From the NCBI RefSeq assembly GCF_027706745.1, contig NZ_JAQFWP010000014.1:1-64000 (forward strand): DNA of 64,000 nt. The letters run 5' to 3'. The notes beneath the pieces were generated by a model. It saw only the letters and a program-made list of their open reading frames with translations. It ran no database searches and had not been told where the DNA came from. The translations under genes and the position numbers were made by a program. How positions within the stretch are numbered: the stretch's first letter is position 1; each line of letters opens with the position of its first letter. This DNA is from Nocardiopsis suaedae (GTDB lineage Bacteria > Actinomycetota > Actinomycetes > Streptosporangiales > Streptosporangiaceae). Shown in pieces: positions 37,653-45,565 of the stretch.

Positions 37653-38519
37653 TCACGGCGCCAGCGCCGGGTTCCGGATCCATTCCTGGAGTTCGTCCCG
37701 GCGGTCGTTGTCGCACTTGAGCGGGCAGGTGGTGCAGAACCCGTGCTCCGGGTCGCCCTTGTAGTCGAAGCAGCACGTCCCCCGCACCGCCCACGTGCCG
37801 CGGGGGTGGTCCTCCCGGAACGGGAAGAGCCGGGGCCGGGCCCGCGTCACCGCGCCCGCCTCGATCAGCGCGTCGCCCAGCGCGCACGCCAGCCGCCAGG
37901 CGTCCTCGGCGTCGCGCCCCAGGAACCGCGCCGGGTTGAGCATGTAGAAGTGCGCGGTGTCCAGCACCCACCCCCACAGCGTGCGCAGGCCCACCCGGGT
38001 GTGCGCGTGCAGGGCGTCGATGACGGGGGCGAAGGCGGCCACCATGTGCTCGGCGGCGGTCCGGACCAGCTCGTCCTCGTCGGCGCAGACCACCGCCGAG
38101 GGGTGGTCGGCCGCGGGGTCGTCGGCGAGCACGGCGGTGCGCACGCCGGTGAGGGTGGGGGTGCCGAAACCGCTCTCCGACCTCCAGGGGAACCACAGGC
38201 GGTCGGCGTCCGGCAGGGCGGCGCGGCGGGTCAGGTAGAGGCCGGCCGAGACCAGGAAGACCGGCTCGCGCAGGGTCGCGCGGAGGAAGTCGGTGACCGC
38301 GGGAAGCCGGTGGCCGCGCGCGCCCAGCGCGGTCAGGCGCTCGAACAGCACCGGGACCTCGCCGTCGGCGACCATCAGGTCGGTGCGGAACCACTGGTCG
38401 GCGGCAGGGTCGCCCGCCCCCGCGGTGATGCCGGGCGCGCGCAGGGCCGGCAGCGGGGAGAACTTCAGCGGCGTGCAGGCGTCGACCACTGCCTGCAGCG
38501 GGACCGGGACCTCGGGCAT
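37653..38519 (-). CDS. FhuF-type [2Fe-2S] ferric-siderophore reductase
   Basis: A 288-residue protein. ATG 38519 lies 84 bp from the iron box. The middle reads TRVGLRTLWGWVLDTAHFYMLNPARFLGRDAEDAWRLACALGDALIEAGAV. The C-terminus carries the cluster motif: Cys249-Cys250, then Cys262 and Cys265 (GTCCFDYKGDPEHGFCTTC), the CC-x11-C-x2-C pattern of FhuF, followed by PLKCDNDRRDELQEW. The family reduces ferric hydroxamate siderophores in the cytosol. This complements the flavin-type SIP of the NRPS locus and supports a hydroxamate-containing siderophore. A decayed copy of its end lies 700 bp downstream. Confidence 0.92.
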   Translation of the reverse strand: MPEVPVPLQAVVDACTPLKFSPLPALRAPGITAGAGDPAADQWFRTDLMVADGEVPVLFERLTALGARGHRLPAVTDFLRATLREPVFLVSAGLYLTRRAALPDADRLWFPWRSESGFGTPTLTGVRTAVLADDPAADHPSAVVCADEDELVRTAAEHMVAAFAPVIDALHAHTRVGLRTLWGWVLDTAHFYMLNPARFLGRDAEDAWRLACALGDALIEAGAVTRARPRLFPFREDHPRGTWAVRGTCCFDYKGDPEHGFCTTCPLKCDNDRRDELQEWIRNPALAP

Positions 38520-38621: not shown

Positions 38622-38776
38622 TCAAATCTCCCGGGGCAAAGACGGGGCGCGCCCGGTGTGTCGGATCGCCTCGCGGCGCGGGCGGTGCGCGGGGGCGTGC
38701 GGGGTCCGGCGGCCCCTGTGGGGTGTCCGTTATGTCCTGTGAGGAATGCAACAAACCCCAAGAGAGTGGAAAGTCA

Positions 38777-38800
38777 GGAATGACACAGGGTGTACATTCC
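38777..38800 (+). promoter_or_regulatory. Palindrome upstream of the peptide transporter
   Basis: GGAATGACAC ... GTGTACATTCC forms an imperfect dyad, with a further GGAATG half-site at 38743. It lies in an AT-richer island (38735-38805) within the 503-bp gap between the reductase and transporter starts. It is a candidate operator; no regulator is assigned. Confidence 0.4.
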
Positions 38801-39022
38801 TTGACCAGGACGGACGTTCGTGACCCCGGACGTCCCCGGCGGGGCGGACCGACGCCCGCCGACCGGAAGACCCGATCGCCGCGCAGGGCGCCGCCCGGCC
38901 CGCCGCAACCCCGGCCCCCACGAGGGGCACGGGGCCACCTGTGCCGAGAGCCGGTCCGCCCGGCCGCGCCCGCGCGCCCCGACCCGGGAGCGCGCGGGCA
39001 CACGCGAACGACGGGAACACCG

Positions 39023-40492
39023 ATGCGGAACCACCCCAAAGGGTTGATCACCCTGGCCGGGACGGAGATGAACGAGCGCCTGTCCTTCTACGGCATGCGC
39101 GCCATCCTCGTCCTCTTCCTCGCGGCGGCGGTGAGCGAGGGAGGCATGGGCCTGGGAACGGGCACCGCCACCGCGGTCGTCGGCCTCTACCTGGCCATGA
39201 GCTACTTCACGGCGCTGCCCGGCGGGTGGATCGCCGACCGCCTGCTCGGCCAGCGCCGCACCGTGCTGGTCGGCGGCGTGGTCATCATGCTCGGCCACAT
39301 CAGCCTCGCGCTGGAGTTCGGATCGGCGTTCGTCTGGTTCGGCCTGGCGCTGGTGTGCGTCGGCACCGGACTGCTCAAGCCCAACATCTCCGCGATGGTC
39401 GGCGAGCTGTACAAGGATGCTCCCGACGCCCGCCGCGACGCCGGGTACTCGCTCTTCTACATGGGCATCAACATCGGCTCGGCCATCGGCCTGTTCCTGG
39501 TGGGCTACCTCGGCGAGCGGTTCGACTGGCACGTCGGCTTCGCCGTCGCCGCCGTCGGCATGGCCCTGGGCCTGCTGCAGTACGTGCTGGGCCAGAAGAA
39601 CCTCCAGGGCGCCGGGGACCGGCCCGGCAACCCCCTCACCGCCGGAGAGCGCGGCCGCCTGCTGCGCAACCTCGCCATCGCCGTCGCCGCGGTCGCGCTG
39701 GCCTTCGCCGCCGCCGCGCTGACCGGCACCCTCAGCGTCGACAACGTCACCTACGTGCTGACGGCCTTCTCGATCATCGTCCCCATCGGCTACTTCGTGT
39801 ACATGTTCGTCGTGCGCCGCGACGAGATCACCGACGAGGAGCGGCCCAAGCTCAAGGCGTTCGTGTGGCTGTTCATCGCCTCGGCCGTCTTCTGGATGAT
39901 CTTCGACCAGGCGGCCGGGCCGCTCACCCTGTTCGCCAAGGAGCACGTCGACCTGCACATCGGCTCCTTCGCCGTGCCCGCCGGGTCCACCCAGGCGGTC
40001 AACCCCGTGATGGTGATCGTGCTGGCCGGGGTGTTCGCCCTGGTCTGGAGCAAGCTGGGCGACCGGGTCAGCACCGGCATGAAGTTCGCCTTCGCCCTGG
40101 TGGTGTGCGGCTTCTCGTTCGTCGTGATGAGCTGGGCGACCGCCGCCACCGACGGCGGCACCGTCAAGGTGGGCCTGATGTGGCTGGTCGGCGTCTACCT
40201 GCTGCAGACCATCGCCGAGCTGTGCCTGTCCCCGGTGGGCCTGTCGATGACCTCCAAGCTCGCCCCGGAGGCGTTCAAGGCGCAGATGATGGGCCTGTTC
40301 TTCCTGTCCATCACCGCCGGGGACGCCGTCGGCGCCCAGGTCAGCCGCCTGCAGCCGGTGCTCGGCGGGAACTACTTCCTGCTGCTGGGCCTGCTGGCGG
40401 TGGTGTGCGGCATCGCCCTGTTCTTCTTCGTGGGCCGGCTGCGCGGGCTCATGGGGGAACACCGCCCCGCGCCCCAGGAGGCCGCGGCCTGA
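39023..40492 (+). CDS. POT/PTR-family proton-dependent oligopeptide transporter
   Basis: A 489-residue transporter with about 14 membrane segments. ATG 39023 gives the family start NHPKGLITLAGTEMNERLSFYGMRAILVLFL, which contains the proton-coupling ExxER-like motif and FYG. Other family parts are GGWIADRLLGQRRTVLVGG, KPNISAMVGELYKDAPDARRDAGYSLFYMGINIGSAIG (the PTR2 signature), and LSPVGLSMTSKLAPEAFKAQMMGLFFLS. It imports di- and tripeptides with protons. It is convergent with the JmjC gene across a terminator. A link to the peptide cassette is possible (retrieval of cut leader peptides) but unsupported. Confidence 0.95.
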   Translation: MRNHPKGLITLAGTEMNERLSFYGMRAILVLFLAAAVSEGGMGLGTGTATAVVGLYLAMSYFTALPGGWIADRLLGQRRTVLVGGVVIMLGHISLALEFGSAFVWFGLALVCVGTGLLKPNISAMVGELYKDAPDARRDAGYSLFYMGINIGSAIGLFLVGYLGERFDWHVGFAVAAVGMALGLLQYVLGQKNLQGAGDRPGNPLTAGERGRLLRNLAIAVAAVALAFAAAALTGTLSVDNVTYVLTAFSIIVPIGYFVYMFVVRRDEITDEERPKLKAFVWLFIASAVFWMIFDQAAGPLTLFAKEHVDLHIGSFAVPAGSTQAVNPVMVIVLAGVFALVWSKLGDRVSTGMKFAFALVVCGFSFVVMSWATAATDGGTVKVGLMWLVGVYLLQTIAELCLSPVGLSMTSKLAPEAFKAQMMGLFFLSITAGDAVGAQVSRLQPVLGGNYFLLLGLLAVVCGIALFFFVGRLRGLMGEHRPAPQEAAA

Positions 40493-40624: not shown

Positions 40625-41812
40625 TCAGCGCAAGACCACCAGATGGTGCCGGACGAATGCGCGCAGCACCGCCGACACCGTGTCGAAGCCCGCCCCCGAC
40701 CGCTCGGCCAGCTCGCCCGCCGTCAGGCGGCGGTCGCGCGCCAGCACGTTCAGCACCGGTTCGGCCGCCGCCGGGAACCGGTAGCGCCGTCCCGACACCG
40801 TCACCGACGCCTTGCCGCCCTCCACTGCCACCGGCGGAGCGATCAGCGGCACGAACTCCACCACCGTGTCCTCTTCCGGGGCACGGCCGTCCTCCACCGC
40901 CCATCGCAGGGCGTAGGACTGGCGGCGCGGGAAGCGGGCGTCGCGCTCGGCGAGGAAGGCGTCCACCCCGTTCTCCTCGGCCAGCGCCGCCAGCACCCGC
41001 ACCAGCTCGTCGTGGCGCTTGCGGCGCTCGTCCAAAGAGGCGAAGCGCGGCAGGTCCCGGCGGAAGACCTCCTCGTCGTAGAGGCGCTCCACCAGCGACC
41101 GCGCCCAGTCCACCCCGGTGGCGCGGGTGAAGCCGAACGTCAGGTGCATGCTCACCCCGCCCGTCCCGGTGACCGTGTGCCACCACCCGCGCGGGACGTG
41201 CAGCACGTGCCCCGGCCGGAGCACGCCCTCCCACACCGTGCCCTCGGGCGGGGTGTGGGAGTGGTCGGAGTCGACCTTCATCGGGTGGGGGCGGCTGCCC
41301 GGCCCGTGCACCTGCCAGGCCTTCTCCCCGGCGACCTGCACGATGAAGGTGTCGTGGTCGTCCCAGTGGGTGGCGAAGCCGTGCGAGTCGCCCCAGATCA
41401 GGTACAGGTTCACCTGGGCGCGCTCGCGCACCAGGCGCATCAGGTCGTCGGCCGCCTCCCGGACCGGCGGGTGCAGCCGGTCGACGCTGTCCAGCACCAG
41501 GCTGGCCCCCTCGCGCAGCTCCCGGTAGAGCGCCTCGGGGCGCACCACCCGGGTGGACTCGCGGGAGACCTCCCCGGCCTCGGTGTAGCGCTCCACCGGC
41601 ACCGCCGAGCCGGTGCGGTGCAGGCGCAGCCGGGGCGGGGCCAGCGGGCGGGTGGCCAGGACCTCGTCGAGCGCGTCGAAGTCCAGCAGGCCGCGCACCG
41701 CGTCTTCGCCGACGTCGGCGAAGAGCACGTCCTCGGACAGGCGGCTGCGCAGGGCGTCCTCGCCGATCGCCGCGCGCACGGCTCCGGTGAACAGGGTGTG
41801 GGGCTGGGACAC
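40625..41812 (-). CDS. JmjC-type cupin Fe(II)/2-oxoglutarate oxygenase
   Basis: A 395-residue protein of the Cupin_4/JmjC group. GTG 41812 has GGAGG 11 nt upstream. The JmjC core is about residues 60-230, with the facial triad His149-x-Asp151 (GFATHWDDHDTFIVQVAGEKAWQVHGP) and His212 (GHVLHVPRGWWHTV). The C-terminal part ends in a winged-helix-like segment (LTAGELAERSGAGFDTVSAVLRAFVRHHLVVLR), the layout of ribosomal-oxygenase-type hydroxylases. Known relatives hydroxylate side chains in proteins (Arg, His, Asn or Asp). The gene is last in a minus-strand set after the peptidase and the 38-residue acidic peptide, which makes that peptide the obvious candidate substrate. No leader-binding (RRE) domain is visible. 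Confidence 0.88.
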   Translation of the reverse strand: MSQPHTLFTGAVRAAIGEDALRSRLSEDVLFADVGEDAVRGLLDFDALDEVLATRPLAPPRLRLHRTGSAVPVERYTEAGEVSRESTRVVRPEALYRELREGASLVLDSVDRLHPPVREAADDLMRLVRERAQVNLYLIWGDSHGFATHWDDHDTFIVQVAGEKAWQVHGPGSRPHPMKVDSDHSHTPPEGTVWEGVLRPGHVLHVPRGWWHTVTGTGGVSMHLTFGFTRATGVDWARSLVERLYDEEVFRRDLPRFASLDERRKRHDELVRVLAALAEENGVDAFLAERDARFPRRQSYALRWAVEDGRAPEEDTVVEFVPLIAPPVAVEGGKASVTVSGRRYRFPAAAEPVLNVLARDRRLTAGELAERSGAGFDTVSAVLRAFVRHHLVVLR

Positions 41813-41887
41813 GGTGGCGGTGACCTCCCGGGGAAGGGGCGGGGCCGCCGGGGGCCAGTGGCGAACCCCCGGCGGCGCTCTAGAGGG

Positions 41888-41924
41888 CGGTCACCCCGGC
41901 GGGGGCGCCGCCGCGCGGTGACCG
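41888..41924 (-). terminator. Hairpin between the small peptide gene and the oxygenase gene
   Basis: CGGTCACC (41888-41895) and GGTGACCG (41917-41924) form a perfect 8-bp stem with further G/C pairing inside the loop. It lies 30 bp after the peptide stop and 75 bp before the oxygenase start. Without a T-tract it may be a partial terminator or an RNA-stabilising stem. Confidence 0.5.
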
Positions 41925-41953
41925 GTGCATCGGACGGTCGGATTCGGTCGCGG

Positions 41954-42070
41954 TCAGATGAAGTCGGAGCTGCCGTCGGTGCCGTCGTTGTCGCCGCCGC
42001 CGGCGGTCAGGTCGCGCGAGGTGACCTCGTCGAGGTCCTCGACCTCGACCTCGAACTCCATGGGGTCCAT
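41954..42070 (-). CDS. 38-residue acidic peptide, candidate RiPP precursor
   Basis: ATG 42070 has AGGAG 5 nt upstream, a good ribosome-binding site. The product has 38 residues: an acidic N-terminal half with FEVEVEDLDE followed by VTSRDLTA, then a C-terminal tail GGGDNDGTDGSSDFI. It has 12 Asp/Glu and a single Arg. The leader-like half resembles acidic, amphipathic RiPP leaders, and the tail is composed almost only of Gly, Asp, Asn, Ser and Thr with a hydrophobic end. It sits between a prolyl oligopeptidase (51 bp upstream) and a JmjC oxygenase on the same strand. This context suggests a modified peptide, perhaps with hydroxylated Asp/Asn. No Cys is present, so lanthionine or disulfide formation is excluded. 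The function is inferred from context alone. Confidence 0.7.
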   Translation of the reverse strand: MDPMEFEVEVEDLDEVTSRDLTAGGGDNDGTDGSSDFI

Positions 42071-42121
42071 GTCTGCTCCTGTCCTTCCTCGTCGGGGTTC
42101 CCTGCCCGGTGGGGCAGAGCT

Positions 42122-44314
42122 TCAGCGCCCGCCCGGGCGCGGCCGCAGGCCGGTCCGCTCGGCGGCGAACGCGTGGGCGTCGGCGGCCAGGGCGACGGCC
42201 CGGGACACGGCGCGCTGGCCGTGGCCGACGTCGCGCTCGTAGCGCAGCAGGGCGGGCGCGCCGGCCCCCTGGAGGGCGGCGCACATCTTGCGGGGGTGGG
42301 CGGCGCCGGTGCGGGTGTCGGAGTGGAAACCGGTGAGCAGGACCGCCGGACGGCGGCCGCCCGCCCCGTCCAGCGCCAGGTGGTAGGGGGAGTACGAGAG
42401 CAGCGCGGCGAAGTCGTCCGGGTCGGCGGCGGTGCCGAACTCGCGGGTCCACATCCGGCCCAGGCCCATGCGCTCGAAGCGGGCCATGTCGGTCAGCGGC
42501 GCCGAGGAGATCACCGCCGCGCACAGGTCGGGCCGGAGCCCGGCGGCGGCGAGCACCAGCATGCCCCCGGCCGACCCGCCGGTCAGGCACAGCCGGGCAC
42601 GGTCGGCGTGGCCGCCCTCCACCAGCGCGTCGGCGGCGGCGACCAGGTCCTCCACGGCGCGGGGCTTGGCGCGTCCGGCACCGCGCCGGTGCCAGTCCCG
42701 GCCGCCGTCGCCGCCGCCGCGCACGTGCGCCACCGCGTACCGGCCCCCGGCGCGCAGCCAGGCCAGCACGGTGGCGCTGAAGCCGAACTGGCGGGGGCGG
42801 CCGAAACAGCCGTAGGCGTGCAGCAGCAGCGGGCCGTCCTCGTCGGGATCGGTGCCGGGCGCGGACAGCAGGGTGATGGGCACCCGGGTGCCGTCGGCGG
42901 AGCGGCAGCGCAGCACCCGGCGGCGGATGCGCGCGGTGGGGGCCGGGGGGCGCCCGCCGTCGGCGGCGGAGGGCCAGGGGCGCGGGCGCGCGGCGCCGGG
43001 GCCGAGCACCAGCACCCCCTGGGGCGTGGCGACGTCGGCGTAGCAGAAGTGGGCGGCGCCGTCTTGGCCCTGCTCCAGCCGGGTGACCATGCCCTCGCCG
43101 GGCAGGGTGACGGCGCGCAGGCGGCGGCCGTCGCGGGCGTCGTGCACGTCGAGGGAGCTGACACCCAGGCGGGTGCGGGTGACCAGGAGCTCGGGCCGGT
43201 CGGGGGTCCCGGCGGCGGTGAACCCGTCGAGGGGCGCGTCGGGGTCCTCGGGGACGACCTCGCGCCAGTGCGCGGGGGCGGCGGGGTCGGCGGCGCAGAC
43301 GCGGCGGCGCGGGGCGTCCAGGGTGGTGCGGAGGTAGAGGACGCCGTCGGGGCCCAGGTCGGCGGTGGTCTCGGCTTCCAAGCCCTCCTGGACCGGGACC
43401 CAGGCGGGGGCGTCGGGCGGGGAGGCGTGCAGGTCGGCGATCCACACGTCGTTGCGGTGGCCGGTGCCGTGGCTCTCGGTGGCCAGCAGCCAGCGGTCGC
43501 CGAGGACCCGCACCCCGGGCACGGTCCGCGGGCCGGTGCAGGCGCGCACCAGGGTGTCCGGGGCGCCTCCGGCGGGGGCGTTCCCGGTGGCGGTGTTCCC
43601 GGTGGCGGCCACGCGGTGCAGCCAGAGCCCGCGGCGGCCGTCGGCGCCGTCGCGGCGGGCGTAGAAGAAGGCGGGGCCGCCCGGGGCCGGGGGGAGCCAG
43701 GCGACGTGCGAGTAGCGGACGCCCGGGATGGGCGGCTCGACGGGGGAGCCGTCGATGGTGCGCAGGATGCGCAGTTCGCCGTGCTCGGTGCCGCCGGTCG
43801 AGGTCTGCACCGCGACGAGGGAGCCGTCGGGGGAGGGCTCCCAGGCGTCCAGGGTGGTGCGCCCGCTGGGGGCGGCGGCGACGGGGTCGAACACGGTCCG
43901 CTCGTTCCGGCCTGCGGCGCCGTCCTTGGCGTGCCTGCCCTTCCCCCGGCCGCCGGCGGCGCCGTCCCGGTGGGCGGCGCCTCCGAGGGAGGCGTCCCCG
44001 AAGGCGACGATGCGGGGGTGCTCGTCGCCGGGGGAGCGGCGGGTGGCGAAGGCGGTGCCGCCGCGCAGGAGCGGGGGCGACCACAGGTCGTGGTCGAGCA
44101 GGCGGGTGATGTCGGAGGCGAGGCGGTCGCGCATGGGCCAGGCGCGGGCGGCCTCGGTGAACTCGCGCTGCCGCGCGTCGAGCCAGCGCCGGGTGGCGGT
44201 GGACTCGCCGTCCTCCAGCCACCGGTAGGGGTCGGGGACGGTGCGCCCGTGGACGGTGTCGAGGACCGACGCGGTGGGTCCCTGAGGTGCGGTCCGGGCG
44301 AACGGAACGCTCAC
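42122..44314 (-). CDS. Prolyl oligopeptidase, S9A family
   Basis: A 730-residue peptidase, the usual S9A length. The beta-propeller is about residues 70-460 and the alpha/beta-hydrolase domain about 470-725. N-terminus: VHGRTVPDPYRWLEDGES. Catalytic triad by position: Ser582 in LTGGSAGGML, Asp666 in TGFHSDTRTG and His698 in DVGHGQ. GTG 44314 is used; no clear ribosome-binding site precedes it, so leaderless or alternative initiation is possible. An Ala/Gly-rich insert lies at about residues 120-145. No signal peptide, so it acts in the cytosol. Enzymes of this type remove RiPP leaders in some class III lanthipeptide systems. The neighbouring 38-residue peptide has only one Pro (residue 3), so a role in its processing is unproven. 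Confidence 0.93.
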   Translation of the reverse strand: MSVPFARTAPQGPTASVLDTVHGRTVPDPYRWLEDGESTATRRWLDARQREFTEAARAWPMRDRLASDITRLLDHDLWSPPLLRGGTAFATRRSPGDEHPRIVAFGDASLGGAAHRDGAAGGRGKGRHAKDGAAGRNERTVFDPVAAAPSGRTTLDAWEPSPDGSLVAVQTSTGGTEHGELRILRTIDGSPVEPPIPGVRYSHVAWLPPAPGGPAFFYARRDGADGRRGLWLHRVAATGNTATGNAPAGGAPDTLVRACTGPRTVPGVRVLGDRWLLATESHGTGHRNDVWIADLHASPPDAPAWVPVQEGLEAETTADLGPDGVLYLRTTLDAPRRRVCAADPAAPAHWREVVPEDPDAPLDGFTAAGTPDRPELLVTRTRLGVSSLDVHDARDGRRLRAVTLPGEGMVTRLEQGQDGAAHFCYADVATPQGVLVLGPGAARPRPWPSAADGGRPPAPTARIRRRVLRCRSADGTRVPITLLSAPGTDPDEDGPLLLHAYGCFGRPRQFGFSATVLAWLRAGGRYAVAHVRGGGDGGRDWHRRGAGRAKPRAVEDLVAAADALVEGGHADRARLCLTGGSAGGMLVLAAAGLRPDLCAAVISSAPLTDMARFERMGLGRMWTREFGTAADPDDFAALLSYSPYHLALDGAGGRRPAVLLTGFHSDTRTGAAHPRKMCAALQGAGAPALLRYERDVGHGQRAVSRAVALAADAHAFAAERTGLRPRPGGR

Positions 44315-44486
44315 CGGGCGGCGCGGGGTCGGCGGCGGGGGTTGTTCCGGTCGGGCACGTGGGCGTGTCGGCTGCGCACGATGACATCGTTCAAGCGCGC
44401 CGCGACGACGGTCAAGGGAGGAGTGACTGTCCGAAAGGCAAGCCAGATGTGCCGGTGAGGCGAGTTGTTCCCCCGGACCCGCCAGG

Positions 44487-45565
44487 TGACGGAGGTGGGG
44501 AGGGCGGTCGGCCCTTCCGGTGGCGCTGTCGGGTGCCGGGCGCGTGTGTGGTCGCCGGAGGGGGCGGCGACGGAATGAGCGGGGCGGTTCCCTGGGCCTG
44601 CTTGCCGTCCGGCGGGTTCCTCGCGGTCCGGGTGGTCGGACGGCTCGGCTGGTACCCCGCTCACGGGCCCTGGCCGGGCGGCGGGCCGCTGGGGTGCAGG
44701 GGGGAAGGGCGGCGACGACGGAGGTCGGCGGTCCTTCCGGTGGTGCTGTCGGGTGCGGGCGTGTGCGTGGTGACGGGAGGGGGCGGCGACGGAATGAGCG
44801 GGGCGGTTTCCCGGGCCTGCTTGCCGTCCGGCGGGTTCCTCGCGGTCCGGGTGGGCGGGCGGCTCGGCTGGTACCCCGCTCACGGGCCCTGGCCGGGGGC
44901 TGGCCGCCGGGGTGTGGGGTGGATGGCGGCGACGACATGGGAAGAGCGGGGCCGAGCGCTCCGGTCGGCCACCGGGCGTCTGCGCCACCCGCGCCGGGCC
45001 CTCTGCGTGTCTCGGCATGTGGGACCGATCGCCGAGTTACGCCTGGTGGCCGGTATCCGGACCTGAATACCGGCCACCAGGCGCATCTCGGCGAAGGGTC
45101 CCACATGCTGATACAGCCTCGTCCCGCCACGCGAGACGCCATGCCCCTGAAACCGGGCATATCGGATCCCTTCGCGCTCGTTGGCCGATCCAGCGCGGCG
45201 AACGAACCACCTGAAGGGCGATCGCGTGGTGCAACCACCACCCTCGTCGCCCCCGGACCGCGAGGGGCCCGCCGCCCGGCAAGCAGGGCCGGGGAAGCAC
45301 CCGGCTGTCGCCGTCGCCGCCCCCTCCGGTGACCACGCACACGCCGCACGGCCGACAGCGCCACCGTAAGGGCCGCCGACCTTCGTCGTCGCTGCCCTCT
45401 TCCCTGACACCCCGGTGGCCCGGCGCCCGGCCGGGGCCCTTGAGTGGGGCACCTGCCGAGCCGCCCGCCCGGACCGCGCGGGGTCCGCCGCCCGGCAAGC
45501 AGGAGCAGGGAATCGCCCAGCTGGTGCCGTCGCCGCCCTCCACCCCGCCATCCCGGGGTCCGTGT
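44487..45565. repeat. Large nested inverted repeat with two tandem units per arm
   Basis: The 1.26-kb gap between the peptidase and Lrp genes has no credible gene. The left arm has two direct repeats offset by 219 bp, unit 1 about 44487-44700 and unit 2 about 44716-44925. Both contain GGCGGCGACGGAATGAGCGG, GCCTGCTTGCCGTCCGGCGG and CGGCTCGGCTGGTACCCCGC. The right arm (about 45240-45565) carries two diverged reverse-complement copies, recognisable by GGACCGCGAGGGGCCCGCCG and GCCCGGCAAGCAGG, then GGACCGCGCGGGGTCCGCCG and GCCCGGCAAGCAGG. The axis is the long palindrome at 45015-45108. A piece of the right-arm unit recurs at about 48765-48815. No transposase is present. Confidence 0.8.
45015..45108. 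repeat. Long palindrome at the centre of the inverted repeat
   Basis: Two 42-bp arms, 45015-45056 and 45067-45108, are inverted copies differing at about 5 positions, around a 10-nt loop. Each arm carries GCATGTGGGACC at its outer end, TCGCCGAG in the middle and CGCCTGGTGGCCGGTAT at its inner end. As RNA or single-stranded DNA this would fold into a very stable hairpin. Confidence 0.85.

Follow-up and report, generated by a model that had tools for sequence, protein, structure and literature searches.

A three-gene cassette on the minus strand of Nocardiopsis suaedae contig NZ_JAQFWP010000014.1 (positions 1 to 64,000, a 64,000-nucleotide stretch hereafter called the window) encodes, in this order, an S9A prolyl-oligopeptidase-type peptidase, a peptide of 38 amino acids and a JmjC-type Fe(II) oxygenase (Table 1). 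We read the cassette as a minimal pathway for a ribosomally synthesized and post-translationally modified peptide (RiPP) in which the peptide would be the substrate of the oxygenase, and we put the probability of this reading at about 75%. The peptide is very probably such a substrate because related oxygenases elsewhere have peptides of their own with the same front half. A preliminary description of this DNA had already pointed to three consecutive minus-strand genes with a well-started short reading frame between two enzymes; all three were recovered where it had placed them, the short frame has its ATG behind a ribosome-binding site, and its translation is as first given. The RiPP interpretation offered there stands in part. 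Its core has survived tests that could have overturned it, and the reaction, the cleavage site and the function of the product are put forward here as proposals.

The reading frame of the peptide is conserved far beyond chance, and we regard the gene as real because of its homology matches, its low ratio of nonsynonymous to synonymous polymorphism (pN/pS of 0.16, from 40 distinct coding sequences and 28 aligned codons) and a wide gap in E-value between its matches and everything else. Searches of 60 genomes matched the peptide in 13, the window's own included (E 7.7e-20 to 3.3e-10); the 12 other genomes gave values of 5.4e-19 to 3.3e-10, hits at 0.15 or worse are noise, and the order peptidase-peptide-oxygenase is retained in all 12. 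A profile search was then made over 297 genomes of the same family, and it returned the peptide in 67 at E <= 1.7e-20, with the next hit only at 8.2e-4. An orthologous oxygenase is found in 67 of the same 297 at E <= 5.6e-138, the next matches being a fragment where a contig begins (G270, 8.9e-95) and paralogs from 1.4e-77. The two sets of 67 genomes are identical. In 66 of them peptide and oxygenase share a contig and a strand at a distance of 83-443 bases, and in the remaining one (G073) the pair is split over two contigs. A precursor of a RiPP is expected to be short, ribosomally encoded and strictly linked to an adjoining modifying enzyme, and both features are found here.

Scanning named genomes with the peptide alignment gave at least 42 loci. 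Judging by record titles, the matches listed come from Nocardiopsis, Streptomonospora, Thermobifida, Marinactinospora, Murinocardiopsis, Marinitenerispora and Allosalinactinospora, together with one Glycomyces fuscus, one Nocardiopsaceae bacterium and one metagenome-assembled genome titled Actinomycetes bacterium. The record titled Glycomyces fuscus (L065) carries a cassette of the Nocardiopsis type, perhaps a problem of record naming. Among the 42 named loci listed, the peptidase gene is directly upstream of the peptide gene in all 42 and the oxygenase gene is downstream in 41, the contig ending in the other (L070). The co-occurrence of the trio, which had been suggested as a check, is seen at these loci. 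Across the 43 peptides compared (those of the 42 loci and the window), VTSRDxTA and a terminal SSDFI are always present, whereas Pro3 occurs in 40. The peptide of L042 has no Pro at all, and those of L028 and L029 lack it as well. Ala23 is constant in all 40 coding sequences, in which Ser, Thr and Phe residues of the tail are conserved as well. No Cys occurs in the peptides of the 12 relatives and the 42 named loci listed, as the preliminary description had expected of a Cys-free product, and no Pfam or NCBIfam family matched the peptide. The ring-forming Cys/Ser core of a class III lanthipeptide is accordingly absent from the peptides compared.

The evidence for an enzyme-substrate relation comes mainly from paralogous JmjC genes of other actinobacterial families, which are 31-42% identical to that of the window over the matched part. 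We collected 33 such loci (L127-L146 and L155-L167), 20 as stretches with flanks of ~4 kb and 13 with flanks of 1.5 kb. Short reading frames upstream of these oxygenases encode peptides with the same type of leader and with different, mostly Asp-rich tails; examples are ...DLVVAVENLADVQDRYDAEHSDSDGSDG in L159 and ...GLVVAVERIVAARGRATQPSDGGSTGKSDLNDN in L127. A leader pattern, which requires the leader Arg but not the tail Asp, was found in upstream reading frames at 29 of the 33 loci, as against 1/33 on the upstream reverse strand, 0/33 downstream and 0/33 on the downstream reverse strand. In L160 the hit itself was out of frame and a fitting peptide in another frame was used in its place, and L157 was missed by the pattern although its peptide fits by eye, which brings the total by eye to 30/33. 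The upstream regions of L156, L143 and L145 gave no leader peptide. Eighteen distant JmjC_2 genes, chosen from weaker matches, likewise gave no leader-type reading frame (0/18).

To place these peptides on a phylogeny, a tree of 66 oxygenases was built by a quick method with midpoint rooting, comprising the window, 14 of the 41 named oxygenases from loci that, like the window, carry the peptidase (hereafter peptidase-type), the 33 paralogs and the 18 distant proteins; its branches are long for L143, L145, L134 and L156. A branch with support of 100 divides the tree into one side on which 45 of 47 members have a peptide and another on which none of 19 do, with three changes of label in all. Which tail a peptide carries goes with the clade of its enzyme. 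A [KR][SGT]DxND tail is found in 16/16 peptides of clade A (support 93), in 0/13 of clade B and in 0/26 distinct peptidase-type peptides, whereas a DxDG(S/T)D tail is found in 26/26 peptidase-type peptides, in 6/13 of clade B, with which the peptidase-type enzymes pair (support 90, not starred in the tree), and in 0/16 of clade A. When 55 peptides are aligned (29 paralog and 26 peptidase-type; L157 was dropped here but counted in the tree and the tail types), the leader Arg stands in 55 rows, the leader Glu in 52 and an Asp matching Asp27 of the window peptide in 54. The count for Arg, and in part that for Glu, is partly built in, since the pattern that picked the 29 paralog rows asks for Arg. 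In the alignment of tails that had been proposed as a further check, the leader is kept and the tails differ between subfamilies, as in a RiPP with a conserved leader and a diverging core; within the peptidase-type family the proposed core is nearly invariant too.

The enzymes that accompany the peptide also differ between the two types of locus. No peptidase occurs in the 20 paralog stretches with ~4 kb flanks (0/20), and an aldo/keto reductase was matched in 28 of the 33 paralog stretches as against none of the 54 stretches of the peptidase type, a set in which some stretches share a genome; in L141 the oxygenase gene and the reductase match are ~3.6 kb apart, and the matches in L135 and L162 are partial. 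The second type of locus (L127-L146, L155-L167) thus consists of a leader peptide, a JmjC oxygenase and an aldo/keto reductase, often with a kinase-like protein. It looks like a RiPP cluster family, and none such was found in the literature searched.

The oxygenase belongs to Pfam JmjC_2 (PF08007, 1.2e-23), and the metal-binding pattern His149-x-Asp151...His212 noticed at the outset is invariant in sets of 11 and of 55 sequences. A structure model from the 55-sequence alignment, with a predicted local distance difference test score (pLDDT) of 93.6, replaced an 11-sequence model of pLDDT 46.5; a fold search with the weaker model likewise put NO66 first. The predicted fold is that of the ribosomal oxygenases (ROX), with a JmjC core, a helical part, a C-terminal winged helix and the HxD...H residues all present. 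In the winged helix, strands are predicted at residues 327-330, 333-338 and 341-346 and helices at 347-358, 364-371 and 375-387 (protein residue = model residue + 1). This bbb-aaa order is the one that defines the RiPP recognition element (RRE), the domain that binds leader peptides, and it makes the predicted winged helix a candidate leader binder.

The peptidase matches Peptidase_S9_N (6.6e-40) and Peptidase_S9 (2.5e-38) in Pfam, and among proteins of solved structure bacterial prolyl endopeptidases come closest to it (2bkl, 1.8e-77). It has the propeller and hydrolase domains and the Ser-Asp-His triad of S9A enzymes; Asp666 and His698 had been assigned correctly, while the serine is residue 581 and not 582. 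Phe504 is kept in 41/42 relatives and Trp622 in 41/41, at positions which we take to be those of porcine Phe476 and Trp595; the places presumed to correspond to porcine Asn555 and Tyr599 hold Ala in 41/42 and Phe in 41/41. Such a pattern of residues would suit Pro or Ala before the cut. As Ala23 is invariant and Pro3 is not, we would guess, if weakly, at cleavage after Ala23 (TA/GG). Arg-specific cleavage at the invariant Arg19 was also considered, oligopeptidase B being the top NCBIfam hit of the peptidase, far under its cut-off; it was rejected, the prolyl-type aromatics being kept and nothing like the Glu pair that we take to mark oligopeptidase B being seen in the peptidase. Arg19 more likely serves leader recognition, since it is also present in peptides of loci that lack the peptidase. 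The peptidase gene was matched in pieces in L034, L040, L050, L071 and L074, and in L034, L040, L071 and L074 the pieces are in shifted frames, through either draft sequencing errors or decay of the copies.

Taken together, we propose that the peptide would dock onto the C-terminal winged helix of the ROX-type oxygenase through its acidic, beta-strand-like leader (FEVEVEDL...VTSR), and that its tail, once bound, would reach into the Fe(II)/2-oxoglutarate site and be oxidised there. The likeliest single reaction would be hydroxylation of Asp, Asp27 first, which is our best guess at a little under even odds. The S9A peptidase would then strip the leader, perhaps at the TA/GG site, to leave a Cys-free, Asp/Ser-rich peptide of ~15 residues. 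The same cassette might instead carry out another oxidation, such as ring closure, desaturation or hydroxylation of Ser, Thr or Phe. The conservation of these three residues in the tail would agree with this, as would the precedent of BipG, whose target is Orn and not Asp in the portion of PMC12707348 consulted. Across subfamilies it is nevertheless an Asp of the tail that 54 of 55 rows retain, and the tail holds few of the usual cross-linking partners except Phe37, so that we consider a different oxidation rather unlikely, if the foremost of the alternatives.

Several observations weigh against a RiPP pathway as such. Within the peptidase-type family the leader hardly varies and neither does the tail, which would fit any conserved small protein, and the modification of the peptide is so far a prediction. 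The leader pattern was composed after the peptides had been seen, L143 and L156 are devoid of an upstream peptide although the tree places them with the peptide-bearing enzymes, and the peptide of L134 lacks the Asp that matches Asp27. The winged helix is similar to its counterpart in ROX enzymes, and known RREs such as PqqD (PF05402) appear neither among the best 25 of 40 families for the 55 members nor among the fold matches listed. The peptidase keeps its prolyl-type aromatics, yet no more than one Pro occurs in the peptide, and in some relatives there is none. Finally, no dedicated exporter was recognised among the neighbours, for which no systematic search was made.

Another idea is that the peptide is an unmodified regulator or inhibitor of the peptidase or the oxygenase and not a substrate. 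Its near invariance over genera would suit such a role, and strict linkage alone is no proof of a substrate relation, but leader peptides persist at paralog loci where the peptidase is missing (0/20 stretches) and their tails change with the enzyme clade, which makes a purely regulatory peptide improbable. A further thought is that the enzyme acts on a ribosomal protein with the peptide as a passenger. The linkage of oxygenase to peptide, which co-occur in 67/67 genomes, argues against a ribosomal substrate; moreover, peptides are confined to one side of the JmjC tree, and the distant JmjC_2 genes that lack a peptide (0/18) are better candidates for a ribosomal role. We give this idea very little credence. 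The surroundings of the cassette might instead hint at a part in iron acquisition, in which hydroxy-Asp residues would make the peptide a ribosomal siderophore. Siderophores are known that bind iron through 3-hydroxy-Asp, and a gene for a FhuF-like reductase lies downstream of the cassette, within the stretch covered, in 37 of the 42 named loci listed. However, a site resembling the iron box stands ahead of the FhuF-like gene and after the oxygenase in all 37 loci holding that gene (up to 4 mismatches), and none was found upstream of the peptidase, peptide or oxygenase in the locus stretches examined. A strict iron-box pattern had no match in 167 loci scanned. Because the iron-box-like site belongs to the FhuF-like gene and none precedes the cassette, the latter is not visibly iron-regulated, and a siderophore seems quite improbable.

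Table 1. Features of the peptide-oxygenase-peptidase cassette and its surroundings (positions in the window)
Feature	Position	Strand	Evidence or remark
Peptide precursor gene, 38 aa, MDPMEFEVEVEDLDEVTSRDLTAGGGDNDGTDGSSDFI	41954..42070	(-)	in 67/297 family genomes; pN/pS 0.16
AGGAG ribosome-binding site of peptide gene	42076..42080	(-)	5 bases between AGGAG and ATG
Leader, peptide residues 1-23	42002..42070	(-)	E11 (52/55 rows) and R19 (55/55) common with paralog peptides; boundary after Ala23 proposed
Proposed core GGGDNDGTDGSSDFI, residues 24-38	41957..42001	(-)	suggested by conservation
Asp27 codon, candidate modification site	41990..41992	(-)	Asp in 54/55 aligned peptides
JmjC_2 (PF08007) Fe(II)/2-oxoglutarate oxygenase, ROX-like; H149/D151/H212, K164	40625..41812	(-)	Pfam, alignments, predicted fold
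Oxygenase C-terminal winged helix, ~residues 317-395, bbb-aaa; candidate leader-binding (RRE-like) domain	40628..40864	(-)	predicted structure; definition from a passage of PMC12710340
S9A prolyl-oligopeptidase-type peptidase, S581/D666/H698; aromatics F504, W622 kept	42122..44314	(-)	Pfam, solved relatives, alignment
GC-rich hairpin in the spacer from peptide stop to oxygenase start; may act as a partial terminator or a processing signal	41844..41876	(-)	folding of spacers
Iron-box-like palindrome TTAGATGAGGCTACCCTAA	38603-38621		upstream of FhuF-like reductase gene; between 37653-38519 (-) and 38723-40492 (+)

The spacer between the peptide and oxygenase genes can form a hairpin with a stem of 8-19 pairs in 41/41 folded spacers (the window and 40 loci; one longer spacer was skipped), and its z score is below -2 in 27 of the 41, that of the window itself being -0.6. 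Partial terminators often follow RiPP precursor genes, and the spacer hairpin resembles these. Between the oxygenase gene and the FhuF-like gene lies a POT-type peptide transporter gene (38723-40492, plus strand), which is found in 6 of the 12 relatives but in 3 of the 42 named loci listed, where flanks are shorter, and is not consistently linked. Upstream of the peptidase gene, at ~44400-45550, reading frames with repeated stretches (PGPVSGVPAEP...) suggest a GC-rich DNA repeat.

If the RiPP reading is right, a ribosome-modifying oxygenase fold has been turned into a one-enzyme RiPP maturase with its own winged helix as leader binder, in a very small and well-delimited system for testing: one peptide, one oxygenase and one peptidase. 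That 67 sampled genomes keep the peptide almost unchanged speaks for a physiological role, none being assigned in the literature searched. Because the tail hardly varies across this bacterial group, we favour a conserved signal, ligand or cofactor as the product over a diversifying antibiotic. Tentatively, and with somewhat less conviction than we attach to Asp hydroxylation, these loci may form a RiPP class of their own, in which a ROX-type JmjC clade with its own leader-binding winged helix modifies dedicated, mostly Asp-rich peptides. In several other actinobacterial families an aldo/keto reductase would complete their maturation, and in the Nocardiopsis group a prolyl-oligopeptidase-type enzyme would do so, giving one almost invariant, group-wide peptide that would serve as a physiological signal, metal ligand or cofactor precursor and not as an antibiotic.

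The oxygenase shares its whole predicted fold and the HxD...H residues with the ROX enzymes NO66, MINA53 and YcfD, but the known substrates of these are ribosomal proteins, and we know of no dedicated short peptide gene beside them. An S9 prolyl-oligopeptidase-type enzyme in a RiPP cluster has a counterpart in the FlaP system; according to the excerpt available on FlaP, however, that enzyme cuts after Pro(-12) of a modified lanthipeptide, whereas here there is no Cys and Pro is absent in some orthologous peptides. No paper describing the one-oxygenase cassette with its peptide clade was found in the open-licence literature searched. The kind itself is known, since JmjC enzymes in RiPP pathways, such as BipG, and RRE-JmjC fusions are already in print. 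In the passage seen of PMC12710340, RRE-like domains fused to PF08007 JmjC are described and bacterial homologs are said to stand in RiPP-like contexts; the union of a JmjC_2 domain with a bbb-aaa winged helix is the same as ours, but that passage concerns proteins of fish and algae and mentions neither a precursor nor a peptidase nor such a clade. PesHI beta-hydroxylates an Asp of a RiPP precursor, the kind of residue proposed as the target here, and PesO acts on Pro; as far as the sections consulted of PMC13060819 go, these are a multinuclear nonheme iron-dependent oxidative enzyme (MNIO) and an alpha-ketoglutarate-dependent HExxH hydroxylase, respectively, and so belong to families other than JmjC. 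A parallel is offered by BipG, BpmG and PbsQ of the biphenomycin-type RiPPs, JmjC or cupin-like enzymes that hydroxylate a residue of a ribosomal precursor (in BipG an Orn), the kind of reaction that we propose for the cassette. In the portions consulted of PMC12707348 and PMC12257519, that hydroxylation of Orn is one step among several, alongside those of an MNIO, a B12-dependent radical SAM enzyme and an arginase, whereas we see no modifying enzyme besides the oxygenase in the present cassette, and it would act on a proposed core that contains neither Arg nor Orn.

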